Source of the DNA: Candidatus Melainabacteria bacterium
GTDB taxonomy: Bacteria; Cyanobacteriota; Vampirovibrionia; LMEP-6097
Direction: 5' to 3'
Assembly (NCBI GenBank): GCA_005110385.1
Contig: DUDT01000014.1
Coordinates: forward strand, 287,328 to 351,327
DNA length: 64,000 bases
Both the position numbers and the translations under genes were made by a program. This document shows positions 2,636 through 61,241 of this stretch, one piece after another. The notes beneath the pieces were generated by a model. That model was given only the letters and a program-made list of their open reading frames with translations. It was not told the DNA's origin and did no database searches. Within the stretch, counting starts at the first letter, position 1. The number at the start of each line of letters is the position of its first letter.

Positions 2636-2636
2636 A

Positions 2637-2681
2637 GAGACCGCTGCCGAGCTCCATTTTCTGCATTTTCGTCCGCCTCTC
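2637..2681 (-). repeat. NAEI element, partial, degenerate; abuts pgl-like stop
   Basis: GAGACCGCTGCCGAGCTCCATTTTCTGCATTTTCGTCCGCC. Confidence 0.7.
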
Positions 2682-3445
2682 TAAAGCATGATGCCAAGCT
2701 TCTTCAAGCCTTGAGCAAAGAGATGATCACAAAATATATGCAAATTTTCTAAATGATTACTTAGTAGATAGCCTAATCCAGTATCGGGATTCTCCATCGC
2801 AGCTTTAAAAGCTTCAGTTTTTTCTTCACCGATGATGGTTATTACTATTTTGATCAGACTAGGGGTCTTAAATACGTCAGTGCCAATAGTGACAGCTTGT
2901 TTAACTCCTAGCTTGCTTGAGCTTAATTCAGCGAGTTCTACTGTGCTAATTTCTCTATTAATATAGTCTTCTCCGATAAAGGCGATATGTGCAGTGCTGG
3001 GATCTGCTCCTAGCCCAAGATATATCACTCGGGCTCCACCGCGTTGATGAATAAATCTTTCGAAATCTTCTGGATGATCAGTGTTTATCGAATAAAATCT
3101 CTCGCCTAATTTATCTATTAGATTCGGCAAGCTGTTTTTCAAGATCTCTGAAAATAGTGTGGTTTTTTTTATAAGACTAGGATTTTTTTCTTCTTCCTCT
3201 AACTCTGAAGTTTCTAAGATTATTTCATCTAAGTGTGAAACAAAGAGCTTAGGGTGAATTAAATCATCTTTAGCATAGAGTTCTTCGTTAAGCTTACTGT
3301 AAATAACTTCTTCATAAGTCGCTCCTACTGGCAGAAGCAGAAGCCCGGGTTGAGCGATATCTGCAAGTAGCTCAGTTACCAGATGATCTTCTAACTCTTT
3401 ACGAGTTGAAAAATTAGTAATTCTTTTTAAAATTTCCTCAGACAA
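2681..3445 (-). CDS. 6-phosphogluconolactonase / glucosamine-6-phosphate isomerase family protein
   Basis: 'GGARVIYLGLGADPSTAHIAFIGED' typical of the pgl/NagB superfamily. Confidence 0.7.
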   Translation of the reverse strand: MSEEILKRITNFSTRKELEDHLVTELLADIAQPGLLLLPVGATYEEVIYSKLNEELYAKDDLIHPKLFVSHLDEIILETSELEEEEKNPSLIKKTTLFSEILKNSLPNLIDKLGERFYSINTDHPEDFERFIHQRGGARVIYLGLGADPSTAHIAFIGEDYINREISTVELAELSSSKLGVKQAVTIGTDVFKTPSLIKIVITIIGEEKTEAFKAAMENPDTGLGYLLSNHLENLHIFCDHLFAQGLKKLGIML

Positions 3446-3450
3446 AAGTC

Positions 3451-5040
3451 CTAGATTCCTTTTAAACGAACATATTTAGCTGTATTAATGCCTTGTATCT
3501 CACTGACTGCTTTTAGGATATCGTTAGAGATCTCAGAATCTACATTTATAACCATAACCGCAGATGCCGTGTCATCTTTACGACCAAGATTTAAAGAGCT
3601 GATGTTAATATTCGCATCCCAGAGTATTTTTGATATTTGAGCGACTTTTCCTGGTTCATCTTTATGAAAGGTAACTATAGAGTGGGAGTCTGGTTTAATA
3701 TTTACAGGAAATGAATCTATCTCAATAATAGTGGGTATATTTCCTTGAAGAACTGTTCCAGCTATGGCTTTCAAGCCAGTCTCGGTATGTAAACTAATGC
3801 GAAGTTTATCGATGTAAGCCCCAGAGTCATCTGATTTCATCTCTGAAACCTTTATACCACGCTCTTTTGCGACCATAGGTGCATTAACGAAGCTTACCCC
3901 GTCAACATTCTGCGAAAGAATACCTTTTAAAATCGCAAGCTTAAGCCCTTCGATATTTTTATCAGCAAGCTGCCCTAATGCTTCTATGTCTATCTGTTTA
4001 ATACAGCCAGAAGATAATTGAGCTATAACTGCTCCCATATGCTCAGCTAAAGGTAAATAGTGCTTAATCGCTTTTAAAAGCTCAGGCTTGAGACCAGGTA
4101 AATTCACCGCAGATCTAGCTACGCCACCAGAAAGTACGTCTCTGATTTGCTCTGCCACATCTAAGGCTACATTTATCTGTGCTTCTTTAGTACTAGCACC
4201 AAGATGCGGAGTAAGTACTACTTTATCACCACAGTCCTGTAGCGGAGATTCTTTTAAGGGTTCTTCGACGAATACATCAATCGCAGCACCACCGACTTTA
4301 CCAGAGTGAATAGCTGCTGCTAAATCAGCTTCATTAATTAAGCCACCGCGCGCGCAGTTAACAATAAAGACACCATCTTTCATGGTTTCTATAGTTTGGC
4401 TATTAATCATATTCTGTGTTTCAGGAGTTTTAGGAACATGAAGGGTTATTACATCTGCATGTTTATAAATATCGTTTAGTTCCATTTTAGTGAAACCTAG
4501 ATCCTCAGCTTTTTCTTTAGAAACAAAGGGGTCATAGCCTAGGACCTTCATCCCAAGTGCTAAAGCGACTTTTCCAACGCGCTGCCCGATTTTACCGAGT
4601 CCGATAATCCCAAGAGTACGAGAGTTAAGTTCATTCCCGACGAATTTAGATCTCTCCCATTTTTTCTGTTTAACAGAAGCATCAGCTGGAGCGATTTTGC
4701 GCATTAGTGCCATTAATAAAGCGATGGTATGTTCTGCTGCTGATACGGTATTACCTTCAGGGGAATTAACTACAATAACGCCTTTTTCAGTCGCAGAAGG
4801 AATATCTATATTATCTACTCCGACACCAGCTCTGCCGATTATTTTTAAATTCACAGCATGCTCTAAAATTTCTTTAGTAACTCTAGTCTCGGACCTGATT
4901 AGCAGAGCATCGTAATTTTTGATGCAGGATTTTAATTCTTCGTGAGTAGTACCAGGTTTGTAATCTAGCTCACAGCTGGATTTTAAAATATCTAAACCTG
5001 AGCTATCAAGTTTATCTGTAACTAAAACTTTAAGAGTCAT
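3451..5040 (-). CDS. serA: D-3-phosphoglycerate dehydrogenase
   Basis: NAD-binding GIIGLGKIGQRVGKVALALGMKVLGYDPF; C-terminal ACT-like domain; 529 aa. Confidence 0.96.
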   Translation of the reverse strand: MTLKVLVTDKLDSSGLDILKSSCELDYKPGTTHEELKSCIKNYDALLIRSETRVTKEILEHAVNLKIIGRAGVGVDNIDIPSATEKGVIVVNSPEGNTVSAAEHTIALLMALMRKIAPADASVKQKKWERSKFVGNELNSRTLGIIGLGKIGQRVGKVALALGMKVLGYDPFVSKEKAEDLGFTKMELNDIYKHADVITLHVPKTPETQNMINSQTIETMKDGVFIVNCARGGLINEADLAAAIHSGKVGGAAIDVFVEEPLKESPLQDCGDKVVLTPHLGASTKEAQINVALDVAEQIRDVLSGGVARSAVNLPGLKPELLKAIKHYLPLAEHMGAVIAQLSSGCIKQIDIEALGQLADKNIEGLKLAILKGILSQNVDGVSFVNAPMVAKERGIKVSEMKSDDSGAYIDKLRISLHTETGLKAIAGTVLQGNIPTIIEIDSFPVNIKPDSHSIVTFHKDEPGKVAQISKILWDANINISSLNLGRKDDTASAVMVINVDSEISNDILKAVSEIQGINTAKYVRLKGI

Positions 5041-14431: not shown

Positions 14432-15103
14432 ATGAACAAACCATGGACAATCATTACATCAGTTACTTTAACACTTCTGCTTGGATATGCAGCACTAGGA
14501 CCAGCTATGAGTAATGTCGAGCAGCCTAAGTATCGGGTTATTTCTGAACAAGGAAATATTCAAATCAGAGAATACAGCCCAAGTATTGTAGCTGAGGTTC
14601 AGGTTCAAGGTGAACGTGAAGAAGCCATCAGCCAAGGCTTCAGGCTTTTAGCTGATTATATTTTCGGTAATAATAAAGTAGAGCAAGATATCGCAATGAC
14701 AGCCCCAGTAACACAGCAAAGCGGTCAGAAGATAGCGATGACTGCCCCTGTGACACAGCAAAGCAGCCAGAAGATAGCGATGACAGCTCCAGTCAAACAG
14801 CAAGGCTTGGATAATGCATGGAAAGTAAACTTTACTATGCCTTCGAAATATTCGATGAATACACTACCTAAGCCTAATAATGAAAAAGTTACACTGCATC
14901 AAGTTCCTAGTAAAAAATATGCCATCATTAAATTTTCTGGTATGGGTTCCAATAAAAATCTTGCCTTGCATGAAAAGGAATTACAGGAATACATATCGGA
15001 AAATAAAATTCAAGCCATATCGGAGCCAATATACGCATTCTATAATCCACCATGGACATTAGCATTCTTGCGCCATAATGAAATCATGATTGAGATTGAG
15101 TAA
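14432..15103 (+). CDS. SOUL heme-binding family protein with triplicated IAMTAPV motif
   Basis: 'PKYRVISEQGNIQIREYSPSIVAEVQVQGEREEAISQGFRLLADYIFGNN' SOUL fold signature. Confidence 0.9.
   Translation: MNKPWTIITSVTLTLLLGYAALGPAMSNVEQPKYRVISEQGNIQIREYSPSIVAEVQVQGEREEAISQGFRLLADYIFGNNKVEQDIAMTAPVTQQSGQKIAMTAPVTQQSSQKIAMTAPVKQQGLDNAWKVNFTMPSKYSMNTLPKPNNEKVTLHQVPSKKYAIIKFSGMGSNKNLALHEKELQEYISENKIQAISEPIYAFYNPPWTLAFLRHNEIMIEIE
14690..14809 (+). repeat. In-frame 42-bp tandem repeat (about 2.8 copies) in the SOUL gene
   Basis: IAMTAPVTQQSGQK / IAMTAPVTQQSSQK / IAMTAPVKQQ. Confidence 0.95.
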
Positions 15104-15186: not shown

Positions 15187-15432
15187 ATGAAAAAACAAAT
15201 CAATATTTCTAAAAAATTACTAGGTTCTGCATTAGCTTTAGGTATGGCAGCTTCTATGACTGCACAAGTTTCTGCACAAGCTAATAATGGTATTAATCAA
15301 GTTTTTGTGGATACTGTAGCTCACACTGAAGAGCATAAATGTGGAGCTGGTAAATGCGGTTCTGGTAAGTGTGGTAAAGATGCTAAAAAGCCAACAACTC
15401 CAGCTCCTACTACTCCAGCACCTAAGCATTAA
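15187..15432 (+). CDS. Candidate bufferin-like RiPP precursor (signal peptide + Cys-Gly-Lys motif core)
   Basis: MKKQINISKKLLGSALALGMAASMTAQVSAQ... EEHKCGAGKCGSGKCGKDAKK; next to DUF692 gene. Confidence 0.75.
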   Translation: MKKQINISKKLLGSALALGMAASMTAQVSAQANNGINQVFVDTVAHTEEHKCGAGKCGSGKCGKDAKKPTTPAPTTPAPKH

Positions 15433-15445
15433 GCTTTAGGATCTT

Positions 15446-15487
15446 GAGGACGATGAAAACGCGGAAAATGTAGTTAGCATTGGTCTC
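15446..15487 (+). repeat. NAEI element, degenerate right half
   Basis: GAGGACGATGAAAACGCGGAAAATGTAGTTAGCATTGGTCTC. Confidence 0.6.
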
Positions 15488-15502
15488 TATGATTTAATTG
15501 TT

Positions 15503-15531
15503 AAAAAGCCTAGCTCTTTGCTAGGCTTTTT
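15503..15531 (+). terminator. Intrinsic terminator between precursor and DUF692 gene
   Basis: AAAAAGCCTAGC-TCTTT-GCTAGGCTTTTT. Confidence 0.85.
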
Positions 15532-15542
15532 ATTTATAGGCT

Positions 15543-15579
15543 GACGCAAACGCAGAAATTGGAGTTCGGCAATAGTGCT
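15543..15579 (+). repeat. NAEI element, right half, immediately 5' of DUF692 gene
   Basis: ACGCAAACGCAGAAATTGGAGTTCGGCAATAGTGCT. Confidence 0.9.
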
Positions 15580-16488
15580 ATGTTTGAGAAAAATAAATTA
15601 AAAAATTATGGCTTAGGCTTAGGCTTAAGAACAGCAATTCAAAAGGAAACTCTGAATTATATTAAAGCCGAAACGGCGGAAAGCTGTATCCAATGGCTAG
15701 AAATAGTAGCAGAGAATTATATCTATAAACCTAAAGCACAATTAGAGATACTGAAAGAGTTTATGGACAGAGGGAAGCCAATCATCCCTCATTCAGTTAA
15801 CCTTAGTATAGGAACGGCTTATAAATCTTCTCCTAGAGAGAGTTATGATAGAAGACTCTTAGATGGTCTTAAAGATTTATTTAAACTTATTCAGCCACCT
15901 TGGTTTTCGGATCATGTTTCCTGCACTCGTATTAATGGATTTTATTTACAGGAGTTAATCCCTGTACCCTTTATAAAAGAATCTGTGGACACGGTTGTTG
16001 ATAATATTAAATTTTTAGAGGATGAGTTCCAGCTTCCTTTTCTCATTGAGAATCCTAGTTATTATTCGACTTTAATTAAGCCTGAAATGACAGAATCAGA
16101 ATTTTTAAATGAAATTTTAGAGAAAGCTGACTGTGGGCTGCTTTTAGATGTTAATAATGTTTACGTGAATGCTCTTAATCACAGTTATAATGCGATGGAA
16201 TTTTTAAATTCCCTAGATCTCTCCCGCACAGTGCAAGTACATATAGCTGGTCATTTAGAGGACTATCAAGCACATCTTAGTAAAAGACATCTTAAGATTC
16301 TTGATACTCATGGAGAAGTTATTAAAGAAGAGGTTTTCGCTCTGTTTAAATACCTTTTAGAAAAGACAGAGGTGAAAGCGGTGCTGCTAGAGCGTGATTC
16401 TAATTTCCCAGAGTTTAGTAATATTATCTCAGAACTAGCTCATGTTAAGCAGCTGATGAAAGAGTCATCGCTTATTGTTAATAATTAG
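15580..16488 (+). CDS. DUF692 / MNIO-family peptide-modifying oxidase (BufB-like)
   Basis: GLGLRTAI, WLEIVAENYI, IPHSVNLSIGTAY, SDHVS, LIENPSYY, LLLDVNNVYVNALNH, QVHIAGH; ATG at 15580 preferred over TTG 15559, which lies inside a repeat. Confidence 0.9.
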   Translation: MFEKNKLKNYGLGLGLRTAIQKETLNYIKAETAESCIQWLEIVAENYIYKPKAQLEILKEFMDRGKPIIPHSVNLSIGTAYKSSPRESYDRRLLDGLKDLFKLIQPPWFSDHVSCTRINGFYLQELIPVPFIKESVDTVVDNIKFLEDEFQLPFLIENPSYYSTLIKPEMTESEFLNEILEKADCGLLLDVNNVYVNALNHSYNAMEFLNSLDLSRTVQVHIAGHLEDYQAHLSKRHLKILDTHGEVIKEEVFALFKYLLEKTEVKAVLLERDSNFPEFSNIISELAHVKQLMKESSLIVNN

Positions 16489-16496
16489 AAAGGTGT

Positions 16497-17036
16497 TTGG
16501 TGGCAGGTGTGCAGAATTTAAGATTACAAAATATTCAAAATGAGATACTAAAATACTTTCAAGGAAAGAAGTTTAGCCCAGAGTTTTTAGAGGCAGCGGC
16601 TTTAGATGATCTAGCTATTTATAAAAGTCTGACTATTAGTGCTTTTGAGGAATATGTAGAAAATATTTTCCCATATACTTATTTATTAATCCAAGATAGA
16701 GTCTCTGAAATCATTCAAGACTATCTTGAAAGGCATCTTAGTGTTTCTGCGGTTTATTATGAATCAGCGAGGGCTTTTCCTGAATTTATTAAAGGTGATT
16801 TTTTTCAAGATAAATATGATCCACCTAATTTCCTGTACGAATTAGCTTTAGTGGAGTGGATAGAGATAGAGTTAAGAAATTCATCTGAAAAGAAGCTTCA
16901 GCAGCTAAAGTTAAACTATCCTATAACTAAAATAAGATTATTAATGAAGGAATGTCCTGAAGAGATAGATGAATTAAAGACGGCTGATGTGGATAAAGAG
17001 CCTGAAATTCTGGAAATTAGCCAAAAGAGTGCTTAA
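16497..17036 (+). CDS. DUF2063-like partner protein (BufC-like)
   Basis: 'LRLQNIQNEILKYF..IYKSLTISAFEEYVENIFPYTYLLI..FPEFIKGDFF..ELALVEWIEIELRN'; follows DUF692 gene. Confidence 0.78.
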   Translation: MVAGVQNLRLQNIQNEILKYFQGKKFSPEFLEAAALDDLAIYKSLTISAFEEYVENIFPYTYLLIQDRVSEIIQDYLERHLSVSAVYYESARAFPEFIKGDFFQDKYDPPNFLYELALVEWIEIELRNSSEKKLQQLKLNYPITKIRLLMKECPEEIDELKTADVDKEPEILEISQKSA

Positions 17037-19317
17037 GCATAGCTTCTGGTCTGAGATGTAACGCTATAGGTTTTAAAGATTTAAATAAACTATCTTTACC
17101 ACCAAGATGAACTCCTTTTTTTACATTATTAAGGTCTTTAAAGCTTGATAATCTTTCTATAACTTGTTTCGGCAGATCTTCTGTAAATAAATAAATTTTA
17201 TTATTATCATAAAAAGCCACTCCTACAGGTAGTATGCAAATATCATCATCTGGATCGTCACAAATATTTCTATTGCTTAAATGATCTTGAGTGCACTGTA
17301 GAACAGGGTCTGCCGGGCTGAAGCACATTATTTCATAGGGTTTGATTTCGCCAGTTTGCTTGTTCCGAAAAATAAATATATTTTCATTAATATCAGGGTT
17401 GTTTGTCGTAATATGCGGGTATCTAGCTAGAGAGGGTGAATAATATTCTATTAAGTCAAAATTGGATAGAGGGTTATTTTTTGTAAGCTGTGTTATTAGC
17501 AGCTCTCTCATAATAACTTGCCTCTCTTTTCTTAAATCACTTCTAGCAGCGAAGGTTTTGGCGAATCCACCATCAGCGTAACTTTTAAAACTGTTTACCT
17601 TGCGGAGTTTTTGCTCTATTTGTCGTAATTTTTTGAAATTATTAAAATATACACCGCGCTCTAACTCTGTCACATCAGGACCTAAAGTGCGTAGATCTAT
17701 TCCTTTTCCTTGAGATTGAGCGATCCTATTCTTCACTTCATGGGGATTTATAGATAATTCAAGCTGGCTTATAGTTGCTGGAGACTTTAATTCACCGGAC
17801 TGATACTTACCTTGAAGTTCATTGAAAGTAAATAGATATATTTTAGAATAAGGTGAATGTCTATCTTTTGATTTTTCTAAATCTGGCTTTAAGACAGCGA
17901 AGCCATCTTCATTTTCAATAAATTTAGGCGGATAATCTTTAAAAATTTCTTCTACCTTGATGAAAGGGCGCTCACTATTATCATTTAATATTACTTTCGC
18001 GACAATCGCTGTTTGACCTTTATGTAAATTCTGAAAACGTGTGGCTTGATTGATTGTTAAGCTCCTAATGCTAGGATAATCAGTTTTTGAGGCCTTAATT
18101 TCGACAAAGATCTCAGGAGAGCTATTTCGTAAAAGTTGTAAGGGAGAAGAATTAGTTGTTGCTTTGTTTGTCTCGAGTTTTAAATCATAACGATGGCCAG
18201 GATTAGAACTCATCAGCTTAGTCTTCATGCCAAGATATTTAAATAAGGCTTCTACTATTCTTTCTCCTTGGTCACCTGTTTTTTCTGGCAGAAAACTTTC
18301 AAACTGTGTTTTTAATTCCTTGAAATAAGCATTATCACTGATTGCTGTAATATCTTGAGCTTTACCCTTTAGCTCTAAGCTATATAAATTATTACTCACA
18401 CTTGCCAACATTGATATTTTGGGATCTGTCTTTGAGATTGATTCTAGATAATCTTCTATTTGAAAATTTTCACCTAAATCTCTCTGTGCATGAGTAGAGA
18501 TTTTTAGAATAGGTGCATCTTTATAACGATGTTTAAGATCGGCGATACGTCGTTCTTTGATCATGGATTTAGTTTGTTTATGTCTAAGAGGATTGGATCT
18601 GTCTTGGAAATCAATAATCAATTTCAGTTTTTCTTTACCCAGGTTATAAACAAATAAATCAAAATCTGGATGGCTAATTTGTTCTAGTTTTTTAAATTTT
18701 TTAAAAAACTTACTGAGAATAAGTTCTATATGATTTGAGTAGTTTTTTTTATGTTCAGGGTAAAGAGTTTGGCTAGTCCCTATCTCTAATTTACTCTGAA
18801 GCATCGCTGCTCTATTATCTCTCTCTGTCACTGTCTTAGATTTTTCATTTAGAATTTTCAAGACATCGGTTAACGAATCTACTTTAATAGGAATAGTTAT
18901 AATTTTTTCTAGATCAGGGTAATGCTCAAAAATCCTATTAAGCATAGGATTTATGTCTGCTGTAATTTTATCGGCTTCTAAAGGTTGTTTATCCTTATCA
19001 TTAATTAAAAAAATAACCCCATCATGGGATTTGTCACGCTTCACGAAATAAACGTGATCAAGTAACTGACTATCTATTTTTAAAAATTCATCACTAGAAG
19101 CACTTTCCCCTGAAACATACTCAAATAGAAGATGTAAAGATGGTAATTTTAGTGAGTCTGGAATGCTTAAGTCTTGTTGGAAACGTCTAGGTTTTGTAGC
19201 TGATTGACTTTCAGGTAATCCAGTCGAATCGGGTCTAGATAACCTTATTATTCTCCGGGAAGGGTGCTGAGGAGGTGTAGAGAGGGGATTTATTCCAGAA
19301 GGCATAACTCTAAGCAA
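17017..19317 (-). CDS. Large hypothetical protein with possible PD-(D/E)XK nuclease-like core
   Basis: 766 aa; 'GDQGERIVEALFKYLGMK..HRYDLKLE..EIFVEIKASKT'. Confidence 0.6.
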   Translation of the reverse strand: MLRVMPSGINPLSTPPQHPSRRIIRLSRPDSTGLPESQSATKPRRFQQDLSIPDSLKLPSLHLLFEYVSGESASSDEFLKIDSQLLDHVYFVKRDKSHDGVIFLINDKDKQPLEADKITADINPMLNRIFEHYPDLEKIITIPIKVDSLTDVLKILNEKSKTVTERDNRAAMLQSKLEIGTSQTLYPEHKKNYSNHIELILSKFFKKFKKLEQISHPDFDLFVYNLGKEKLKLIIDFQDRSNPLRHKQTKSMIKERRIADLKHRYKDAPILKISTHAQRDLGENFQIEDYLESISKTDPKISMLASVSNNLYSLELKGKAQDITAISDNAYFKELKTQFESFLPEKTGDQGERIVEALFKYLGMKTKLMSSNPGHRYDLKLETNKATTNSSPLQLLRNSSPEIFVEIKASKTDYPSIRSLTINQATRFQNLHKGQTAIVAKVILNDNSERPFIKVEEIFKDYPPKFIENEDGFAVLKPDLEKSKDRHSPYSKIYLFTFNELQGKYQSGELKSPATISQLELSINPHEVKNRIAQSQGKGIDLRTLGPDVTELERGVYFNNFKKLRQIEQKLRKVNSFKSYADGGFAKTFAARSDLRKERQVIMRELLITQLTKNNPLSNFDLIEYYSPSLARYPHITTNNPDINENIFIFRNKQTGEIKPYEIMCFSPADPVLQCTQDHLSNRNICDDPDDDICILPVGVAFYDNNKIYLFTEDLPKQVIERLSSFKDLNNVKKGVHLGGKDSLFKSLKPIALHLRPEAMLKHSFG

Positions 19318-19405
19318 TCCATGCCTACAATTCTATACAAGATATGGAAATTCAATCTAAAACTTCCATCATCTTTTTGAAAAGATAAATGAAGTAAAAC
19401 TCATC

Positions 19406-20788
19406 TCACTTACCAAGCATATGTCTTAGAGCTGATTCCAAGCTTGCAAAGCTAAATTTATAGTTAGTATCTGTTAAAACCCTAGGCTCCACTTTAGTAC
19501 TAGAAAGTAAAAGTGCATCAGCCATTTCTCCTAAAGCTAATCTTAAAGCTAGGGCTGGGGCTGGAAAGATCGCAGGTCTATTTAATACTTTCGCAAGAAT
19601 TTTAGTGAAATCAGCATTAGTAACTGGTTCTGGGCTAACTACATTAACTGCTCCTGAAATATTATCATTCATTAGGCTGTGGTGAATAGCACCGATAACA
19701 TCATCTAAGGCAACCCAACTCATCCACTGTTTTCCGCTGCCAAGGATGCCACCGCCACCTAAAGAGAATAAAGGCAGCATTTTTCCTAAGGCTCCAGCTT
19801 TAGGATCTAAAACTATACCAAACCTAGCGTTTACGACTCTAATACCCTTCTCTTCTGCTCTTTTAGACTCTTTTTCCCAAGCAATGCAGGTATCTGAAAG
19901 AAAACCCGAACCAACTGGTGAATCTTCATTAAAACTTTCTACTTCGCTATGACCATAAAATCCAATTGCAGAAGCTGAAATTAAAACTTTTGGTGGATTG
20001 TTTAATTTTAATAACTGATCAACAAGAAATTTAGTTCCAGAAACTCTAGAGTCATAAATTTTCTGTTTTTGTTCTTTAGTCCAGCGTCCCTTTGCGATAT
20101 TTTCTCCAGCTAGATGAACTACTGCATCAAAGCCTTCTAAGGCTTCCCTATTTATGAATCCAGCATCAGAAGATGATTCCGATGGGTGCCAATATATTTG
20201 ATTGTTTTCAGTAATATCATCTCTGGTTAATTTAAAAACTTGGTGACCACCAGAGCTTAAGAATTTAACTAAAGCGTCCCCCACTAAGCCACTAGCACCT
20301 GTTACAAGTATTTTCATCGTTGCTTTATCCTTATATTTATAATGTTTCTGAATATCGTTACTAATAACCTGTAACCGAAAATTAAAAAGTTTCTTTAATT
20401 TCTTCATTGTATATGACTTGGAGAAGAAAGGATCACTCAAAATTAACTCAAAAGAAATATTCTCCACTAAAAGAGCATGGCTATCATTAATCGCCTGCAT
20501 TTGATGAAGGTGTGTCCAAGACTTAAAAGGGCCGCTAAGCTGTGAGTCTTTAAACTGTTTACCCGGAATAACTTCGTGTATTTTCAGATTCCAGGGGAGA
20601 GTTAAAGGTCCTAGCTTGAGATCAAGTTCAACAAGGGCACCATCAAAGAGAAATTCAGGATGAGTCTTAATATTAACCTTTTCCCAGTGTGGTAATAATC
20701 TTTCTAAAGCTCTAGGCATATTATGCCAGTTATATAAATAATTACAGTCACATGGGATTATGCTTGAGAACTCCACAGTATAAGCCAT
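19406..20788 (-). CDS. TIGR01777-family SDR epimerase with N-terminal SRPBCC-like domain
   Basis: MKILVTGASGLVGDALVKFLSSGGHQVFKLTR; HLAGENIAKGRWT; ISASAIGFYG. Confidence 0.93.
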   Translation of the reverse strand: MAYTVEFSSIIPCDCNYLYNWHNMPRALERLLPHWEKVNIKTHPEFLFDGALVELDLKLGPLTLPWNLKIHEVIPGKQFKDSQLSGPFKSWTHLHQMQAINDSHALLVENISFELILSDPFFSKSYTMKKLKKLFNFRLQVISNDIQKHYKYKDKATMKILVTGASGLVGDALVKFLSSGGHQVFKLTRDDITENNQIYWHPSESSSDAGFINREALEGFDAVVHLAGENIAKGRWTKEQKQKIYDSRVSGTKFLVDQLLKLNNPPKVLISASAIGFYGHSEVESFNEDSPVGSGFLSDTCIAWEKESKRAEEKGIRVVNARFGIVLDPKAGALGKMLPLFSLGGGGILGSGKQWMSWVALDDVIGAIHHSLMNDNISGAVNVVSPEPVTNADFTKILAKVLNRPAIFPAPALALRLALGEMADALLLSSTKVEPRVLTDTNYKFSFASLESALRHMLGK

Positions 20789-20819
20789 GATAAACCTTTG
20801 TACAGAACTTTTTACTAAG

Positions 20820-20868
20820 CAAAAAAAGAGGCTAAAGCTAATCTGAAGAGATTAGATCAGCTTTAGCC
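20820..20868 (-). terminator. Intrinsic terminator downstream of LOV-LytTR gene
   Basis: GGCTAAAGCT...AGCTTTAGCC stem followed on the minus strand by a T tract. Confidence 0.8.
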
Positions 20869-20995
20869 AAGCTGGTTTTGTGTATAGTAAAATTTTAAGC
20901 CTTAAAAGCTAATGAAAAGTTAACTCTTGTAAGATAAGCAGAAAGAGATGTATGAAATGCATTTGCGGAGTTTTTAGATTAGATAAAAGTTAGAG

Positions 20996-21763
20996 TTATT
21001 CAATCTGAAGGTCTTTAAGTATCGCTTTCGAGCCACTACGAGATGCTGTAATCTCTGCTTCTTTTTTATTTTTAAAAATCAAATCATAAGTCCCATCACC
21101 ATTGGGAATCATATGCTCAATGTAATTAATATTAATCAAAGCACCTTTATTAGCTTTATAAAACTCAAATTCAGCTAGGCGTTTTTCTAATTTTTCTATA
21201 GTGAAATAAGTAGGGAAGCTTTTTTCTTCAGTGTGGATAACGACTTGGCGTTGATCACGCTCAACATAAACAATCTGGCTTGGCATTAAAAACCGAATAC
21301 TGCCTTCTTGGTAATCTTTAACAGCTATTTTACTAGTTTTATTTTTAGCAAGCTCTCGCTGAGCTATTTCTCTGCTTGTTACATCATTCTGAACCCCAAC
21401 AAAATGCGTGACTACCCCTTCCGTATTTTTAATCGGGGAAATGTTTAGTTCGTTATAAAACATAGTCCCATCTTTTCTGTAATTTTTAAGAATTACTTGG
21501 CAGTCAGTACCAGATCTAATAGCATGCTTTAAAATCTCTAACTGAGGCTGCTCAGTGTCTTCACCTTGTAAAAACCTACAGTTCAGTCCGATAATCTCTT
21601 CTCGGCTATAACCTGTAACTAGCTCAAAACCTTTATTAACATAGATAAGGGGGTTATCATTCTGTTGGTTATCACTAATCACCACACCACAGCTCGTCGA
21701 CTCTAAAGCAAAATGCTTAAGCTCCTCTGCGAGTTGATCATTAGCAGTGTTTTTAGCACCCAT
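20996..21763 (-). CDS. LOV/PAS-LytTR regulator (candidate blue-light-responsive transcription factor)
   Basis: Canonical LOV motif GLNCRFLQGEDT with photoactive Cys; C-terminal LytTR-like domain (YVERDQRQVVIHTEEKSFPTYFTIEKLEKRL). Confidence 0.9.
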   Translation of the reverse strand: MGAKNTANDQLAEELKHFALESTSCGVVISDNQQNDNPLIYVNKGFELVTGYSREEIIGLNCRFLQGEDTEQPQLEILKHAIRSGTDCQVILKNYRKDGTMFYNELNISPIKNTEGVVTHFVGVQNDVTSREIAQRELAKNKTSKIAVKDYQEGSIRFLMPSQIVYVERDQRQVVIHTEEKSFPTYFTIEKLEKRLAEFEFYKANKGALININYIEHMIPNGDGTYDLIFKNKKEAEITASRSGSKAILKDLQIE

Positions 21764-21834
21764 CTGAGTGTTGATTTTAGCAGAAATAGAGGTGATGTAT
21801 TGGTCTCTTATTTTAGAATGATAAAATAAACCTT

Positions 21835-22371
21835 ATGTTCATTAGACTTCTCTGCCTAGTCTTCATTTTGAGTTCTTGCTCTTTTGTAAACCCGAAGAGT
21901 CCTTCGCGGAAAATGCATTTTAAATTACCGAAAGATTATAAACAGATAAACTCTAGCTCTAAAAAAGATGGTTCTTTCGTTAAAGAATTTATCCCGAAAT
22001 CAGAAGATCCACAAAACTGGAATAATATGATCCGTTACGTTTATCAGCCTACGAAAACAGAGATCTATGAGCAGTTTAAAGAAATGGCTGATGTAATAGG
22101 GAAGGTCTGTGAAGAGCCTTTTGTGCCTAAACCATTTACTGGTAAATTTAGTGGGGCAGAGGCTTTAAATGCTCTTACCGCTTGCGGTAAGCATCCTAAT
22201 ACTCAGCGTGGTGAAATCAGTCAGTATCTTATGGTTCAAGATACTGATGGCATACATAGTGTGCAGAAAACAGTTCGCATTGAGCCTTTCAAGGAAAAAG
22301 AAGCTAATGCTGTAATTACAGAAAATCTGAAAACCTGGAATGATTTTTTTCAGACTTTAAAATTTAAATAA
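21835..22371 (+). CDS. Putative lipoprotein
   Basis: MFIRLLCLVFILSSCSF lipobox-like N-terminus. Confidence 0.7.
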   Translation: MFIRLLCLVFILSSCSFVNPKSPSRKMHFKLPKDYKQINSSSKKDGSFVKEFIPKSEDPQNWNNMIRYVYQPTKTEIYEQFKEMADVIGKVCEEPFVPKPFTGKFSGAEALNALTACGKHPNTQRGEISQYLMVQDTDGIHSVQKTVRIEPFKEKEANAVITENLKTWNDFFQTLKFK

Positions 22372-22375
22372 TGGC

Positions 22376-23062
22376 TTATAAAAAATAGAAAAACATAATT
22401 AAAATTACTAAATAGCTGAAAGCTACACTAAATGAGCTTCTTGGGCTCTTAGCTAAGCTTAGGATTAAGCTAGAGAAAAAACCAATTAATAGCCATGCTA
22501 CATAATTATTCATCGGAATAACATTATTAAACCAGTGCCAGTAATCAAGCTCGGCAGCATGAGGCTCAATTAGATAATCGATTAGAAGCATAAGAGCAGC
22601 GACTAGAAATGCTTTAAGCGCAGCCTTAGGGAACTGCTCGCGAATTCCATTTTTTGCGTTTTCGTCATCCCTGAAAGCCTTTAAAGGAAGGTTTTCTAGG
22701 AATTTAGTGATAATTTCTTGGCTTGCGTGTAATAGTAGAAGCCAGTTCAGACCAATAATAAGAGGAATCTGAAAAACTTTAATACCTAATGTCTCGGCGT
22801 AGAAATAAGTACCGAAAGGCCACCCAGAGTATACTCCTAACCACTCTACTCCATAAAAGCTTAGATATAAAGCTAAATAAAGCCCATAGGGTATTTTTTC
22901 ATTGAAGAATATTATGAACGCTGAGATTAGAAGATTTATAGATGATAGGCTTAGGAAAAAAAGGCGATAGCCTGAATTAATACCTAAAAAACCAATTAGG
23001 TGAATCAATACTAAGAGAATTATTTTGCTAGAGTTTAAATTTAATTTCTTGACACTAATCAT
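22376..23062 (-). CDS. Carotenoid biosynthesis membrane protein (CruF/DUF422-like)
   Basis: 'GWPFGTYFYAETLGIKVFQIPLIIGLNWLLLL', 'LIDYLIEPHAAELDYWHW', 'NNYVAWLLIGFF'. Confidence 0.85.
   Translation of the reverse strand: MISVKKLNLNSSKIILLVLIHLIGFLGINSGYRLFFLSLSSINLLISAFIIFFNEKIPYGLYLALYLSFYGVEWLGVYSGWPFGTYFYAETLGIKVFQIPLIIGLNWLLLLHASQEIITKFLENLPLKAFRDDENAKNGIREQFPKAALKAFLVAALMLLIDYLIEPHAAELDYWHWFNNVIPMNNYVAWLLIGFFSSLILSLAKSPRSSFSVAFSYLVILIMFFYFL
22629..22673 (-). repeat. NAEI element, right half, in-frame in CruF-like gene
   Basis: Minus strand GATGACGAAAACGCAAAAAATGGAATTCGCGAGCAGTTCCC. Confidence 0.85.
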
Positions 23063-24261
23063 TAAAGTTCATCTCTAATTAAAGTTACGTACTTGGCTTG
23101 AATATCTTGAAAAATGCTAGGAGACAGCTGTTCTAAAGTTTGGTCAGAGTTACGTTCAATCTTTTTTAACTGTAAAATATGGTAGCCGTAATCTGAACTG
23201 ATGATATTACTGATCTGTAAAGGCTTTCTTAGTTTCATGACACCATCGCTAATATTTTTAGCATAGAAGTTATCTAAATTATTTACTGGAATAACCATGT
23301 CAAAGACTACTAGGTCTTTAAATAAATCCTTAACTACTCTGTAATTAGGTTCTCGTATTAAAATTTTCTTTAAGTAAGAAATCTTTTCTATAGCAGATTC
23401 TGCTTCCTTATCTATGTAGAACTGTCTAAAATAGTAATTCTCATGTGCTGCTAAATTATTTTTCTTGATATTTAAATACTCTTCTTGAACTTTAGCTTGG
23501 ATTTTCTTTTTAAACACTGGATCTGCGTTGAAGCGCTTTAAAAAAATTTTCTCGGCAAGGCTATCTTTAACTAATTCAGATTTAGTATAAAAGACTAAAT
23601 CCTCTAAATCTAAATCATAGCTCAGAAGCCGGTCTTTAAAAGCCTGTTTACCTCCAAGTTTGGTTTCGTAGAGATAAAGTTTCTCTAAAATCATGGTGTC
23701 ATCAGGAATAACAGCTAATTTATTTGCCTTATTTAAGATTTTAAGGCGTTTATTATAATCGTTTACTATTCTAGGTTTTACTTCTAAATCGAAGTATTTT
23801 ATGAAAACTAAGCGTTCATAAAAATCCTTCTGTAGCTCTTCTAATCGTATATCCTTGGTTCTTAAATATTCATCTAGCTGAGCCTGGCTATGAAAATTAT
23901 TTACTAAATACTCCTTCCAAGCTGCCCTTAAGACTTCTGGGCTTACTGAAATATTCTTTAGTCGACAGTAGTTAAATATTTCATTTTTAATTTCCTTTGC
24001 CTGAGGGGATTGCTCACCATCTTTAGCAGCTCCTGGTGAATTTGGAAAAAGTTTTTTCATGCAGAAATTCTGGTAGGCTATGACTATTCTGTTAAGCTTT
24101 ACTTGATTTAAAGTTAGAGACTGTTTTGTTAATGCTGCGTTTTGCAGTAAATTGCGGTCATTTGCGCTTACTTCAGCGATAGTTACTAAAACTGATACTG
24201 ATAACGAAAAAAAAACTATATAGAAATTTTTTTTTAGAACAGCTCTTATAATTCTTGTCAT
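23062..24261 (-). CDS. SurA-like/PpiC-type peptidyl-prolyl isomerase
   Basis: N-terminal signal; C-terminal 'DYGYHILQLKKIERN' parvulin motif. Confidence 0.75.
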   Translation of the reverse strand: MTRIIRAVLKKNFYIVFFSLSVSVLVTIAEVSANDRNLLQNAALTKQSLTLNQVKLNRIVIAYQNFCMKKLFPNSPGAAKDGEQSPQAKEIKNEIFNYCRLKNISVSPEVLRAAWKEYLVNNFHSQAQLDEYLRTKDIRLEELQKDFYERLVFIKYFDLEVKPRIVNDYNKRLKILNKANKLAVIPDDTMILEKLYLYETKLGGKQAFKDRLLSYDLDLEDLVFYTKSELVKDSLAEKIFLKRFNADPVFKKKIQAKVQEEYLNIKKNNLAAHENYYFRQFYIDKEAESAIEKISYLKKILIREPNYRVVKDLFKDLVVFDMVIPVNNLDNFYAKNISDGVMKLRKPLQISNIISSDYGYHILQLKKIERNSDQTLEQLSPSIFQDIQAKYVTLIRDEL

Positions 24262-24339
24262 TGGGCTTTACGAAAACTCTATTCAGCTACTGCTCCCAAT
24301 TATACTTTAAAATAGAACTTATTCATCTGAGCAGAGTTT

Positions 24340-25101
24340 ATGAATACCAGCATATTAGAAATAAAAGATTTAGAGATTTTCTTTCCGCAGAATAAATTCA
24401 CGGCAGTGAAAGGCATTAGCTTTGAGATGAAAGAGGGTGAGATAGTCGCTTTAGTGGGTGAAAGCGGCAGCGGTAAATCTTTAACCGCTTCTGCCATCAT
24501 AGGATTAGCTCCTCATACGGCAGACCTTAAAGGTCAGATTATTTATAAAGGTCACAGCCTTTATCCAGACTACCCAAGAGAACTTCGAGGTAAAGAGATT
24601 TCTTTAATCCCTCAAGACACGCTTAGCTCTCTAAATCCAGTATTTAAAGTGGGGGAGCAGGTCTATGAAGCTTTAGATATATGGAATAAAGATCTTTCTA
24701 AGGTTGAAAAAAAAACTAAGGTGCTAGAAACCTTCTCCATGACAGGTATTTCTGATCCTGAAAGATGCTACCGTGCTTACCCTCATGAGATCTCTGGAGG
24801 TATGAGGCAGCGGGCGATGATCGCTATGGCTATTATTAATGAACCGGAGATTCTTATTGCAGATGAAGCTACTACCGCACTAGATGTAACCGTTCAGGCA
24901 CTTATCATTAAACTTCTAAGAGATTTAAAAAAGACTATTCTCTTTATTACCCATGACTTGGGTGTAGTCGCCGAAATCGCTGACAGAGTGATAGTCATGA
25001 GGCGCGGCGAAATAGTTGAAAACAGGGATGTATTTTCATTATTTAATAAACCAGAGTCGGAATACACTCAGAAACTGCTAGCAGAAATGCCTAAACTTTA
25101 A
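24340..25101 (+). CDS. ABC transporter ATP-binding protein (Dpp/OppD type)
   Basis: Walker A GESGSGKS; LIPQDTLSSLNPVFKVGEQ; SGGMRQRAMIAMAI; ADEATTALDVT. Confidence 0.93.
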   Translation: MNTSILEIKDLEIFFPQNKFTAVKGISFEMKEGEIVALVGESGSGKSLTASAIIGLAPHTADLKGQIIYKGHSLYPDYPRELRGKEISLIPQDTLSSLNPVFKVGEQVYEALDIWNKDLSKVEKKTKVLETFSMTGISDPERCYRAYPHEISGGMRQRAMIAMAIINEPEILIADEATTALDVTVQALIIKLLRDLKKTILFITHDLGVVAEIADRVIVMRRGEIVENRDVFSLFNKPESEYTQKLLAEMPKL

Positions 25102-25219: not shown

Positions 25220-26626
25220 ATGAATGTTAACGTTTTCGGTATCCCAAATTTTGATAAAGCTCATGTTCTTGCAAGAAAATCTGACGGAACTTTACCTGGT
25301 AGCGTAAGGGATAACCTTTCTGATGAAGAAGAAAAAAGATTACTAGAAATTATAGAAGAATTCGAAAAATCTCCTACGGACTTAAAGGTTAAAAAGGAAA
25401 AATATGCCGAATTAATGAAGCTCTTTTATAAAGGGATCGGTTTAGATGAGAAGGGTAAAGGCACTATTTCTGAAAAAGATCAAAGAGCAGCTTTAGAACT
25501 CTCTGGTTTAATTAATGATGCGATTTTACAAGATCAGCAGAACATAGATGGTAGTTATAATGCTTCTCAGCTTAAGGATGCACTTGAGTTACAGAATAAG
25601 TTTCGTAAAGATTTAGAAAAAACTGATTTTAAAAACTTATTAAAAGCAGATAAAGGTAAGGATACTGAGATAAGTGCAGGGCAAAAAGAATACCAGACTG
25701 AGCAAATAACTTCTTATTTAGCTGAAAATAAAGAAGATTTTACTAAGATATTTCAGGAACTGTCTAAGGAGAAGCCTGATTTAACGAAATTCACTGAAAC
25801 GCAAAAAGAAAAACTTAAAAACTTAAAAACTTTAGCTGGCGAAAAAGGTCAGAATATTTTAAATACGATTTTAAGTACATTTAAAGATTTTAAAGAATAT
25901 AGTTTTACAAATGCTGATCTGACTAAGATGAAACAGACTACTGATGCTAAATTGCTGGAGCAAGCAACAAAGCCATCTATTCCCGATAATTGGGAAAGGG
26001 TGAAGCCTAAGCCTGATGGTAAGCCTAGATCTAAGGACACTGATAATGATACGTCGACAAGCAGATCAGGTAGGGGGTCTTGTGATACTAGTGGAATTCT
26101 TGAAAAAATTTTAGCGAGGCTTGAAAAGCTTGAAAATGGAGATACGGATAAAGATACTAAAAAGAGGCAATCTTCTGCACCAGGTTGGTTAACTGTTATT
26201 TCAGGCCTAGCTGATGCAGCTGCTAAAGTTATTCCAAGTCTTATTAATAACAATCAAGATTACTGCTGTTACTCACCAGCACCATGTTATGGAGGCGGGG
26301 GATATCAACAACATCCCATCTGTAGGCGACCTTATTATGTCGGCGGCGATACATGGCCGTGGGGTAGGGCGAATGGCATTAATAGTGAATATAGTGCCTT
26401 TAATAATTACATGCCTTCTTCGGGGTCTTACTCTGCCATTTCAAATCCATCTTCAACGAGTTCTAGTAATCCTTACAGTAGCTCGTCAGCTTATAATCCG
26501 ATAAGTATATCGGTTAATCCAGTATTTAATAATAGCCCTACTCAGAGCAGCAGCTCGAATAGCTATTCTGGATCACGTTCGAGTAACGTGGCGGCAATCA
26601 GAAGAAGCTTTGGTATTAATACCTAG
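25220..26626 (+). CDS. Hypothetical protein, charged helical N-terminus, Ser/Asn/Gly-rich C-terminus
   Basis: 468 aa ORF. Confidence 0.7.
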   Translation: MNVNVFGIPNFDKAHVLARKSDGTLPGSVRDNLSDEEEKRLLEIIEEFEKSPTDLKVKKEKYAELMKLFYKGIGLDEKGKGTISEKDQRAALELSGLINDAILQDQQNIDGSYNASQLKDALELQNKFRKDLEKTDFKNLLKADKGKDTEISAGQKEYQTEQITSYLAENKEDFTKIFQELSKEKPDLTKFTETQKEKLKNLKTLAGEKGQNILNTILSTFKDFKEYSFTNADLTKMKQTTDAKLLEQATKPSIPDNWERVKPKPDGKPRSKDTDNDTSTSRSGRGSCDTSGILEKILARLEKLENGDTDKDTKKRQSSAPGWLTVISGLADAAAKVIPSLINNNQDYCCYSPAPCYGGGGYQQHPICRRPYYVGGDTWPWGRANGINSEYSAFNNYMPSSGSYSAISNPSSTSSSNPYSSSSAYNPISISVNPVFNNSPTQSSSSNSYSGSRSSNVAAIRRSFGINT

Positions 26627-26744
26627 TATTCGCAGAACTTAGGGTATTTTTTAGAACTCTAATGAGAGATCGTACCTGTAAATTAACTGATTCTTAACTT
26701 TAATTGTTAACAGTATAAGTATATAGACACTATATGAAAATGCC

Positions 26745-28316
26745 ATGTTAGATTTAAGCGTTTTGAGTACATTCGATCCTGTTAGTCTCAGCTCTACTAA
26801 GAATAGTAGTGGCGATGGTATTAGTTTTGAATCACAGTTAGATCCCTCACTAGATGCTGATAAACTTGCAAAAATTATCGAAAAAGAAGCAGCAAAGTCA
26901 AAAGATGAAGCTAAAAAGCTTGAGCTTATAGAAAGATCACTTGCATACGTCCGAGCAAAAGGTGGCAGTGACTTATCTTCAGATGTATATGAACAATTGA
27001 AAGGTAAGGATAGTAGTGATCTATTTGGGCCAGCAGATGAAGTGCCATCTAGTGTGAAGAGTAATACTGCTGCTAAAACTGCTTGGGAAAAGATCATGAC
27101 AGGTAGAGCTTATGATCATATTGAAGAAAATAAAAATTCTATTCAGGAGGATTTAGACTCTGCTCGTGATGAGGCGGATGATAAAAAGATTTTAAAAGTA
27201 GCTGATAATCCAGCCTTAGTTAATTTAAAAGAAGAATTAACGGAAAATGGTATGTCAAGCGCTGAGGCAGATAGAGATATATCTAGAATGCTGCGAGAAA
27301 CTAATTTACTAAAGTCAGGTGAAAGCGTTAAGATCGAAATGGATAGTCCTTCAAGTGCTTTATCTGCTGGCAGAACTAAGAAATTAGAAGAGTTCAGAGA
27401 TAAATTAACTGCAAGAATTGATAAAGCAACAAGCCCAGAAGCAGCTAAAAAAATCTTAGAGGATTCTGTAGATGATTTTGAAAAATTAAGACCAAGTGGC
27501 ATAAAGGCTGAAACGTTCTACACTGAGCAGATGCAAGCCGTATTAGACGAGTCAAAAAAATACAAAGATTATCATGTAGCTGCTACTCCTTCTTTAGAGA
27601 AGATTACGGTTGATGGAAAAGAGTTAATTAAAACTACTAATGATAACGTCTATGTCTCTGATGGAAAATTCGTTAATTCGAAGGGCAAGGAATATGAGGT
27701 TAAAGATGACAAAATTACAGTGGATGGTACGAAAATAGGCATAAAAGACATAAAACCATCACAGCCAGAAATTAGTGTTTTTATGCACAAAGATCAGGAT
27801 AAAGTCGAGGATCATAGCTTAGAAGCTGGCAAAGAATACATAGAAGACCAAAGATTAGTATATAAAGCGAGTGGAGATGAAGAAGCCTTAAGAGAGTTAA
27901 AGAAAGCTGAAAAGGTTTTAGATAAAACCGAAGATGCTGTAGAAGCAAGACGTAAAAGAGAAGAAAAAGAAGGTAAGAGCGACAACAATGACACACTTAA
28001 GCTAATAGTGGGGATTATCGGTGCCGTAGCTACGGTAGTTGCAGCTCTGAGCCAAGGTCGTGGAAAAACCACTACTATAACGGGTGGCGGTGGTTATAAT
28101 GGCCAAGCTGGCTATGGATATGGTTCCTATTACGCTTCAGATAAATATGGTTATAACAGAGGCTACCAAGCGACAGTCGATGCAGCCTATCAACGTTCAA
28201 ATCAATATTTAAGCACGCTTTATAATAATCCAGTTAGGACTAGGGCTTCAATTATGAGGCAGAATGGCATGTATGCAATTCAGAATGGGGCTGGTATACA
28301 TAGGTATACTGGGTAA
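26745..28316 (+). CDS. Hypothetical protein, charged N-terminus, Gly/Tyr-rich C-terminus
   Basis: 523 aa ORF; GGGGYNGQAGYGYGSYYASDKYGYNRGYQ. Confidence 0.7.
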   Translation: MLDLSVLSTFDPVSLSSTKNSSGDGISFESQLDPSLDADKLAKIIEKEAAKSKDEAKKLELIERSLAYVRAKGGSDLSSDVYEQLKGKDSSDLFGPADEVPSSVKSNTAAKTAWEKIMTGRAYDHIEENKNSIQEDLDSARDEADDKKILKVADNPALVNLKEELTENGMSSAEADRDISRMLRETNLLKSGESVKIEMDSPSSALSAGRTKKLEEFRDKLTARIDKATSPEAAKKILEDSVDDFEKLRPSGIKAETFYTEQMQAVLDESKKYKDYHVAATPSLEKITVDGKELIKTTNDNVYVSDGKFVNSKGKEYEVKDDKITVDGTKIGIKDIKPSQPEISVFMHKDQDKVEDHSLEAGKEYIEDQRLVYKASGDEEALRELKKAEKVLDKTEDAVEARRKREEKEGKSDNNDTLKLIVGIIGAVATVVAALSQGRGKTTTITGGGGYNGQAGYGYGSYYASDKYGYNRGYQATVDAAYQRSNQYLSTLYNNPVRTRASIMRQNGMYAIQNGAGIHRYTG

Positions 28317-28535
28317 TTTGGAGGGCTTGGCTAGGTTTACTTAGAATTATTAATTAGGTTTAAAAATAATTCTAAATAAAATAAAATTTATAGAATTTTA
28401 AAACTACCTAAAACCCTCTCTTAATAAGTATTACATATAAATTTCTAAATAAACTCTCCTTTATATAAGCACAAGAACGAAATAAAAGTTCTAAAAAGCA
28501 TTAGGGATAAGGCTTTTAAATAAGGAGATTTAATT

Positions 28536-29015
28536 ATGAATTGGTTTTTTAGTAATTATAGTAATTTCGGTGGCAGTTTTAATGGTGGTGTAAGCACTCG
28601 CGGCTGGGGCGGGAATTATGGCTGGGGCGGAAATTCTGGTGCCGTTCAAGGTGCTAATGGCAGCTGGGGTGGTTACAGCGGAAATACTCAGACTCTTCCA
28701 AATACTCAACCAATGGATTATCGTTACGGTGCGAGCTTTGCGAGTAATAATAACTCTGGCGGCTTTGGTTTTAATAATGGAAACATAGGCTGGGAGAATA
28801 GACCAGATGAATCTGGCAGATATTATAATTATGCAAAAGAACGCCAACCTTATGATGATTTTTTAAGACGTGGCTTTAATCCTGGTTATGAGCAAAATAA
28901 TCTTGTTGCAACAAGAGACAGAAGAAGAAATGTTGAACAAACTATTGATAGTATTGGGCAGGTTGGTTTCTGGGGGCGTGGTTCTGGTTATCCACTAAGT
29001 CTATATGTGGGCTAA
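28536..29015 (+). CDS. Hypothetical Gly/Asn/Trp-rich protein
   Basis: GGSFNGGVSTRGWGGNYGWGGNSGAVQGANGSWGGYSG; gene-like upstream AAGGAG. Confidence 0.7.
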   Translation: MNWFFSNYSNFGGSFNGGVSTRGWGGNYGWGGNSGAVQGANGSWGGYSGNTQTLPNTQPMDYRYGASFASNNNSGGFGFNNGNIGWENRPDESGRYYNYAKERQPYDDFLRRGFNPGYEQNNLVATRDRRRNVEQTIDSIGQVGFWGRGSGYPLSLYVG

Positions 29016-61141: not shown

Positions 61142-61241
61142 TCAAATTCTTAACTAGTAGTTAACGTATATTACATACATATTAATATCCAATACCACTT
61201 TGGAATCTTCTCTTTTAAATTAATATACAAGGAATAATCTT

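Follow-up and report, generated by a model that had tools for sequence, protein, structure and literature searches.

The locus analysed here, part of a 64,000-nucleotide stretch of contig DUDT01000014.1 from a Candidatus Melainabacteria bacterium (hereafter the window), raises the question of whether a blue-light sensor has been joined to a DNA-binding domain in a single regulator and, if so, which genes this regulator would control. The ORF call together with Pfam, NCBIfam, PDB and Foldseek matches delineated a protein of 255 residues (LOV-LytTR; 20996..21763, minus strand) comprising an N-cap helix (residues ~6-21), a LOV domain (~25-129), a linker/J-alpha helix (~130-141) and a LytTR domain (~146-252). 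A previous sequence-only reading had proposed a PAS domain with the full adduct motif GLNCRFLQGED, followed by a LytTR-like DNA-binding domain, and both are borne out: the motif occupies residues 59-69, and a Pfam scan places PAS_9 at residues 25-129 (5.7e-24, above cut-off) and LytTR (PF04397) at residues 156-250 (3e-19, 69.5 bits versus a cut-off of 22.6). LOV models and structures match the PAS domain best, as the LOV-specific NCBIfam matches (YtvA_fam, 5e-48 over residues 18-143; blue-light histidine kinase, 1.5e-38), the first-listed PDB matches (LOV proteins, with PpSB2-LOV 7a6p at 7.7e-35) and the Foldseek ranking (LOV structures first) indicate. In the AlphaFold model, the N-cap helix precedes a PAS fold, which is followed by a helix at 130-141 and a beta domain resembling LytTR; pLDDT values are mostly 83-92 for the LytTR domain and lower for the LOV part, probably because only four sequences served as input. 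As sensor and DNA-binding domain reside in one chain, both above cut-off, and neither a kinase nor a receiver domain appeared in the Pfam and NCBIfam scans, there is good support for the predicted architecture of a one-component blue-light switch.

Alignment of four orthologues (the window protein and three others that are 95, 71 and 62% identical to it) revealed that N61, C62, Q66, N94, N104 and Q125 are invariant; by comparison with LOV structures, N61, Q66, N94, N104 and Q125 would be flavin-contact residues. The arginine of the motif (R63) is a lysine in the orthologue of genome G006. We consider it likely that the protein acts as a light switch: the LOV domain would bind a flavin, blue light would induce a Cys62-flavin adduct, and the change would pass via the helix after the LOV domain to the LytTR domain, altering its pairing or its binding to DNA. 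Redox responses are known from LOV domains, and the module might instead sense the flavin redox state or oxygen, or work independently of light, making the protein a redox or stress regulator, as might suit a host that is presumably not photosynthetic. That the adduct cysteine and the flavin-contact residues are invariant in four diverged orthologues, and that photolyase genes occur in the same genomes, argues against this possibility, which we deem improbable.

In the host genome (G000; 1.9 Mb in 25 contigs, 88.5% complete), which belongs to a presumably non-photosynthetic Melainabacteria-type relative of cyanobacteria, LOV and LytTR have a single match each, both in LOV-LytTR. Placement in the order Caenarcaniphilales was considered and found no confirmation. 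Related proteins include that of Cyanobacteria bacterium REEB446, at 95% identity, and that of Candidatus Melainabacteria bacterium SI037S4_bin4, at 62%. In a whole-protein search of 382 genomes of the class, matches covering both domains were confined to four (G000, G001, G006 and G007), which belong to three genera of one family, G000 and G001 being in the same genus. When the search was extended to 386 genomes of the phylum, the matches listed (the weakest being omitted) all end within or shortly after the LOV domain, apart from that of the window itself and a separate LytTR match in G004. LytTR is present in 8 of 240 genomes of the class. Outside the cyanobacterial phylum coverage was thin, consisting of a scan of genome contigs, plasmids and phages, and the fusion may occur elsewhere in bacteria. 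Three long plasmid matches that were read in detail, from Shinella, Rhizobium and Neorhizobium, proved to be LOV/PAS-HWE kinases that lack LytTR, and matches in phages and viral contigs covered the LOV part and never LytTR. No paper combining "LOV domain" and "LytTR" was found in the open-access literature searched.

Which genes, then, would such a switch control? The interval 20996-23062 had been described as LOV-LytTR next to carotenoid and SDR genes. Both kinds of gene do lie nearby, and the interval does hold the LOV gene and a CruF-like gene, but it also includes an opposite-strand lipoprotein-like gene and omits the SDR gene, which is the most conserved neighbour. This SDR gene (19406..20788, minus strand) encodes a 460-residue protein that NCBIfam and Foldseek matches identify as an SRPBCC (Bet v 1/START-like) domain joined to an SDR of the TIGR01777 family with a DUF1731 C-terminus. 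It scores 328.8 bits against TIGR01777 (cut-off 207.35) and 278 bits against the ThyD model NF050030, under the equivalog cut-off of 400, and differs from ThyD by the additional SRPBCC domain; ThyD is a cyanobacterial SDR-family protein with a role in high-light acclimation (PMC12288457). The first 150 residues gave no Pfam match, the predicted structure of this N-domain has the SRPBCC layout, and Foldseek returned the two-domain Corynebacterium protein 3oh8 first (465 columns), followed by many Bet v 1/PR-10 folds.

In each of the four fusion genomes, the next sizeable same-strand gene encodes a TIGR01777-type SDR of 451-465 residues, a small DUF378 gene intervening in G007, and this adjacency has been kept between orthologues at 62% protein identity while other neighbours differ. 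Moreover, the two-domain SDR is encoded in all five genomes that have LOV/LytTR genes (G000, G001, G004, G006 and G007), though on a different contig from them in G004, and as a single gene in none of the four without them, of which G002 is only 54% complete and G005 has the parts on separate contigs; the genomes are related, so these are not nine independent observations. A full-length SRPBCC-SDR homologue in Tsukamurella adjoins sigK and genes for a lipocalin, DUF1365, a CMAS-type methyltransferase and an FAD oxidoreductase. DUF1365 (UfaO) and UfaM are furan-fatty-acid enzymes (PMC7380195), and the Tsukamurella neighbours appear to resemble that gene set, an association that is suggestive only, since a second plasmid homologue, from Arthrobacter, lacks such company.

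Photolyase genes provide a further link to light. In G007, LOV-LytTR is followed on one strand by DUF378 (4644-4865), SDR (3288-4643) and photolyase (2014-3291) genes, the latter two overlapping by 4 bases. Conversely, G003, a genome of the same genus, has none of LOV-LytTR, a PF00875 photolyase or the two-domain SDR. The LOV-LytTR/DUF378/SDR/photolyase/peroxiredoxin block of G007 is missing at the syntenic place in G003 (locus L047 1-6620 versus L155), which we read as gain or loss of the block as a unit. The two genomes cease to be syntenic some 0.9 kb past the LOV gene. The absence of the block from G003 suggests horizontal transfer into G007, as judged from the single flank that is visible. 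Within 10 kb of LOV-LytTR in G006 there are a photolyase-related gene of the DPRP type and another SDR gene, with other genes between. The window's genome has three different photolyase/cryptochrome genes (L078 6794-8134, L079 6105-8048 and L080 7063-8559), none adjacent to the LOV gene; the L078 gene is a CRY-DASH above cut-off and the L079 gene is divergent from a CrtD/CrtISO-like gene.

On the basis of the SDR adjacency in four of four genomes, the photolyase run of G007 and the joint absence from G003, we regard it as fairly probable that LOV-LytTR is a blue-light one-component regulator mainly of adjoining photoprotection and photorepair genes. The presumptive targets, in whichever direction control would run, are the adjoining SRPBCC-SDR (TIGR01777) gene and, in G007, the DUF378-SDR-photolyase run directly behind LOV-LytTR. 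The constant neighbours, comprising a putative enzyme of light-stress type and, in G007, a photolyase, point to protection from light damage rather than to the CruF-like gene.

This CruF-like gene had nonetheless suggested light-controlled pigment genes to the sequence-only reading. It encodes a Caroten_synth membrane protein (22376..23062, minus strand; PF04240, 85 bits versus a cut-off of 25) and lies 613 bp from the start of the LOV gene, in agreement with the ~0.6 kb and the CruF/DUF422-like assignment originally given. Because it scores under the CruF equivalog cut-offs (TIGR03460/NF045693, 54.7 versus 154.7 and 24 versus 400), "CruF-like" is the right wording. The gene lies near LOV-LytTR in both genomes of the window's genus, the window's genome also encodes a phytoene synthase and a CrtI-type desaturase (above cut-off, paired ~66 kb from the LOV gene), and light is known to induce carotenoids in bacteria that are not phototrophic (PMC6739363), so LOV-LytTR could mainly control carotenoid synthesis, starting with this gene. 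Several observations speak against such a role. First, the divergent lipoprotein-like gene, which belongs to no family, lies between the two on the opposite strand (21835..22371, plus strand; a 39% identical homologue is found ~4 kb from LOV-LytTR in G006), and the CruF-like gene abuts a gene for a PpiC/SurA-like peptidyl-prolyl isomerase (23062..24261, minus strand; weak Rotamase_2 match, below cut-off), with which it likely forms an operon. Second, adjacency to LOV-LytTR is confined to the window's genus, and in G006 the homologue, at 42% identity, sits on a different contig from LOV-LytTR, where it overlaps a desaturase gene. Third, neither PF04240 nor a phytoene synthase was detected in G007, which has LOV-LytTR, and G005 (80% complete) has both with no LOV or LytTR match. 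Fourth, the paired LytTR repeats that had been anticipated upstream of carotenoid genes did not emerge above shuffled sequence in a consensus scan. A carotenoid link is thus possible in the window's genus, where these genes may be extra targets, yet we judge it unlikely that they are what LOV-LytTR mainly controls, and the proposal of light-controlled pigment genes does not hold up as a general role.

We then considered the DNA between the LOV and SDR genes. Folding and comparison with G006 revealed a 15-bp hairpin with the 9-nt loop AAUCUCUUC followed by a U-tract (20820..20868, minus strand), ~32 nt before the SDR start, and directly before it a conserved box, TATACACAAAACCAGCTT (20869..20886, minus strand), that is identical in G001 and near-identical in G006 and possibly comprises a -10 element and transcript start. 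Box, hairpin of 14-15 bp, invariant UCUCUUC loop and U-tract recur on the minus strand in the window (20820-20886), L042 (6508-6575) and L044 (9308-9377). The stem letters of G006 differ and pairing is kept, with 6 of 15 pairs changed on both sides; overall, 97.8% of cells pair compared to 24-50% when the partner is slid, in three sequences chosen because they fold. The covarying stem supports the view that the hairpin is real, within the limits of three fold-selected sequences. It would be either an intrinsic terminator of the LOV gene or an attenuator in the SDR leader. Hairpin and box are conserved in two genera, and since a strong hairpin with a U-tract lies between LOV and SDR in three of the four fusion genomes, the two genes are not simply one transcript. 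The hairpin was not detected in the G007 gap, and none is obvious upstream of the G004 SDR. An Rfam scan of window positions 19000-25000 returned nothing credible.

Upstream of 24 LOV, SDR, photolyase and carotenoid genes, LytTR-type direct repeats did not exceed shuffled sequence in a scan with a LytTR consensus, which a divergent motif would escape. This result, the terminator-like hairpin before the SDR gene and the fact that four genomes of one family amount to few independent observations are compatible with a regulator that acts only on itself or on unlinked genes, its neighbours reflecting old synteny devoid of a functional link. We find this distinctly unlikely, as the SDR adjacency outlasts divergence to 62% identity while other neighbours vary, and the block is missing as a whole in G003. 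A possible regulator site upstream of the hairpin is the direct repeat TTAAC-N6-TTAGC (20908..20923, minus strand), which has an 11-bp period and is also present upstream of the G006 SDR. This period is presumably unlike that of LytTR sites and recalls OmpR/PhoB-type boxes, to which class the TTARC-N6-TTARC repeat possibly belongs. Repeats of this form occur at 20908-20923, 26683-26698 and 61150-61165 in the window and at 9410-9425 in L044; they fall outside genes in the loci examined, save for one inside a probably spurious antisense ORF.

Elsewhere in the window, positions 15187-17036 (plus strand) encode a short Cys/Lys-rich secreted peptide (GKCGSGKCG), an MbnB/TglH/ChrH enzyme (PF05114, 1.5e-76) and a weak DUF2063 match, and look like a candidate bufferin-type RiPP metallophore locus. 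A SOUL heme-binding protein (6.7e-49) with an internal repeat around IAMTAPV is encoded at 14432-15103 (plus strand), and a row of genes with low-complexity Gly/Ser/Asn/Tyr-rich stretches, which G001 has too, extends over 25220-29015 (plus strand).

The origin of the fusion may be illuminated by G004, a genome of another genus of the same family, in which a LOV-HisKA-HATPase gene (L048 310-1437) overlaps a REC-LytTR gene (1437-2216). Its LytTR is about 47-58% identical to those of the fused proteins, whereas a LytTR from a different family within the class reaches 27%, and it shares the VKDY start of the module. Its LOV domain is about 49-57% identical, and the LOV parts of the fused proteins cluster with that of G004 in a five-row clade with an SH-aLRT of no more than 82. 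The G004 pair thus carries LOV and LytTR modules of the same sequence kind, but divides them between two proteins, which also contain HisKA, HATPase and receiver domains, and has no SDR gene adjacent on the contig examined. Because the same modules form an overlapping gene pair in G004, a single in-frame deletion of everything between the LOV and LytTR modules could have yielded the fused protein. In a GyrB tree, G007 (fused) groups with G004 (split) and with genomes that have neither form, at a distance from G000, G001 and G006, and this placement forces neither a split-to-fused nor a fused-to-split direction. A fuller scenario, in which a LOV-kinase/receiver-LytTR system collapsed by one deletion and then moved between genera with photolyase and SRPBCC-SDR genes, the SDR leader hairpin adding a second, RNA-level control, strikes us as rather doubtful. 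If the fused protein is indeed a light switch, it and its G004 counterpart would offer a natural two-component/one-component pair for studying such conversion.

If the light-switch reading is true, LytTR joins the known outputs of natural LOV transcription factors, a compact 255-residue switch with a non-HTH DNA-binding fold could serve optogenetics, and blue-light sensing accompanies several photolyase genes in cyanobacterial relatives that presumably do not photosynthesise. Three features set the system apart: its output domain is LytTR, the fusions found in the genomes surveyed all come from a single family, and a sister genus has a two-component counterpart. In one-component light regulators of the EL222/LOV-HTH type, LOV is fused directly to a LuxR-type HTH; the window protein is likewise a single soluble chain in which a LOV sensor is coupled directly to a DNA-binding domain, but its output is LytTR. 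Similarly, its LOV domain matches the YtvA (LOV-STAS) model at 5e-48, but the protein lacks STAS and reaches 163.8 bits against the YtvA family NF052652, whose equivalog cut-off is 250. In Pseudomonas mendocina, a short LOV protein and a class II LitR (PmSB-LOV/PmlR2) control a region with photolyase, SDR, FAD oxidoreductase and ufaM genes (PMC9758184). The LOV domain of the window protein belongs to the same sequence group, its best PDB matches being PpSB-LOV proteins, and the light-induced photolyase region of P. mendocina also has an SDR gene, which, unlike that of the window, is not known to belong to TIGR01777. Whereas the LOV protein is separate in that system and binds a MerR-type repressor, the window protein carries its own DNA-binding domain.
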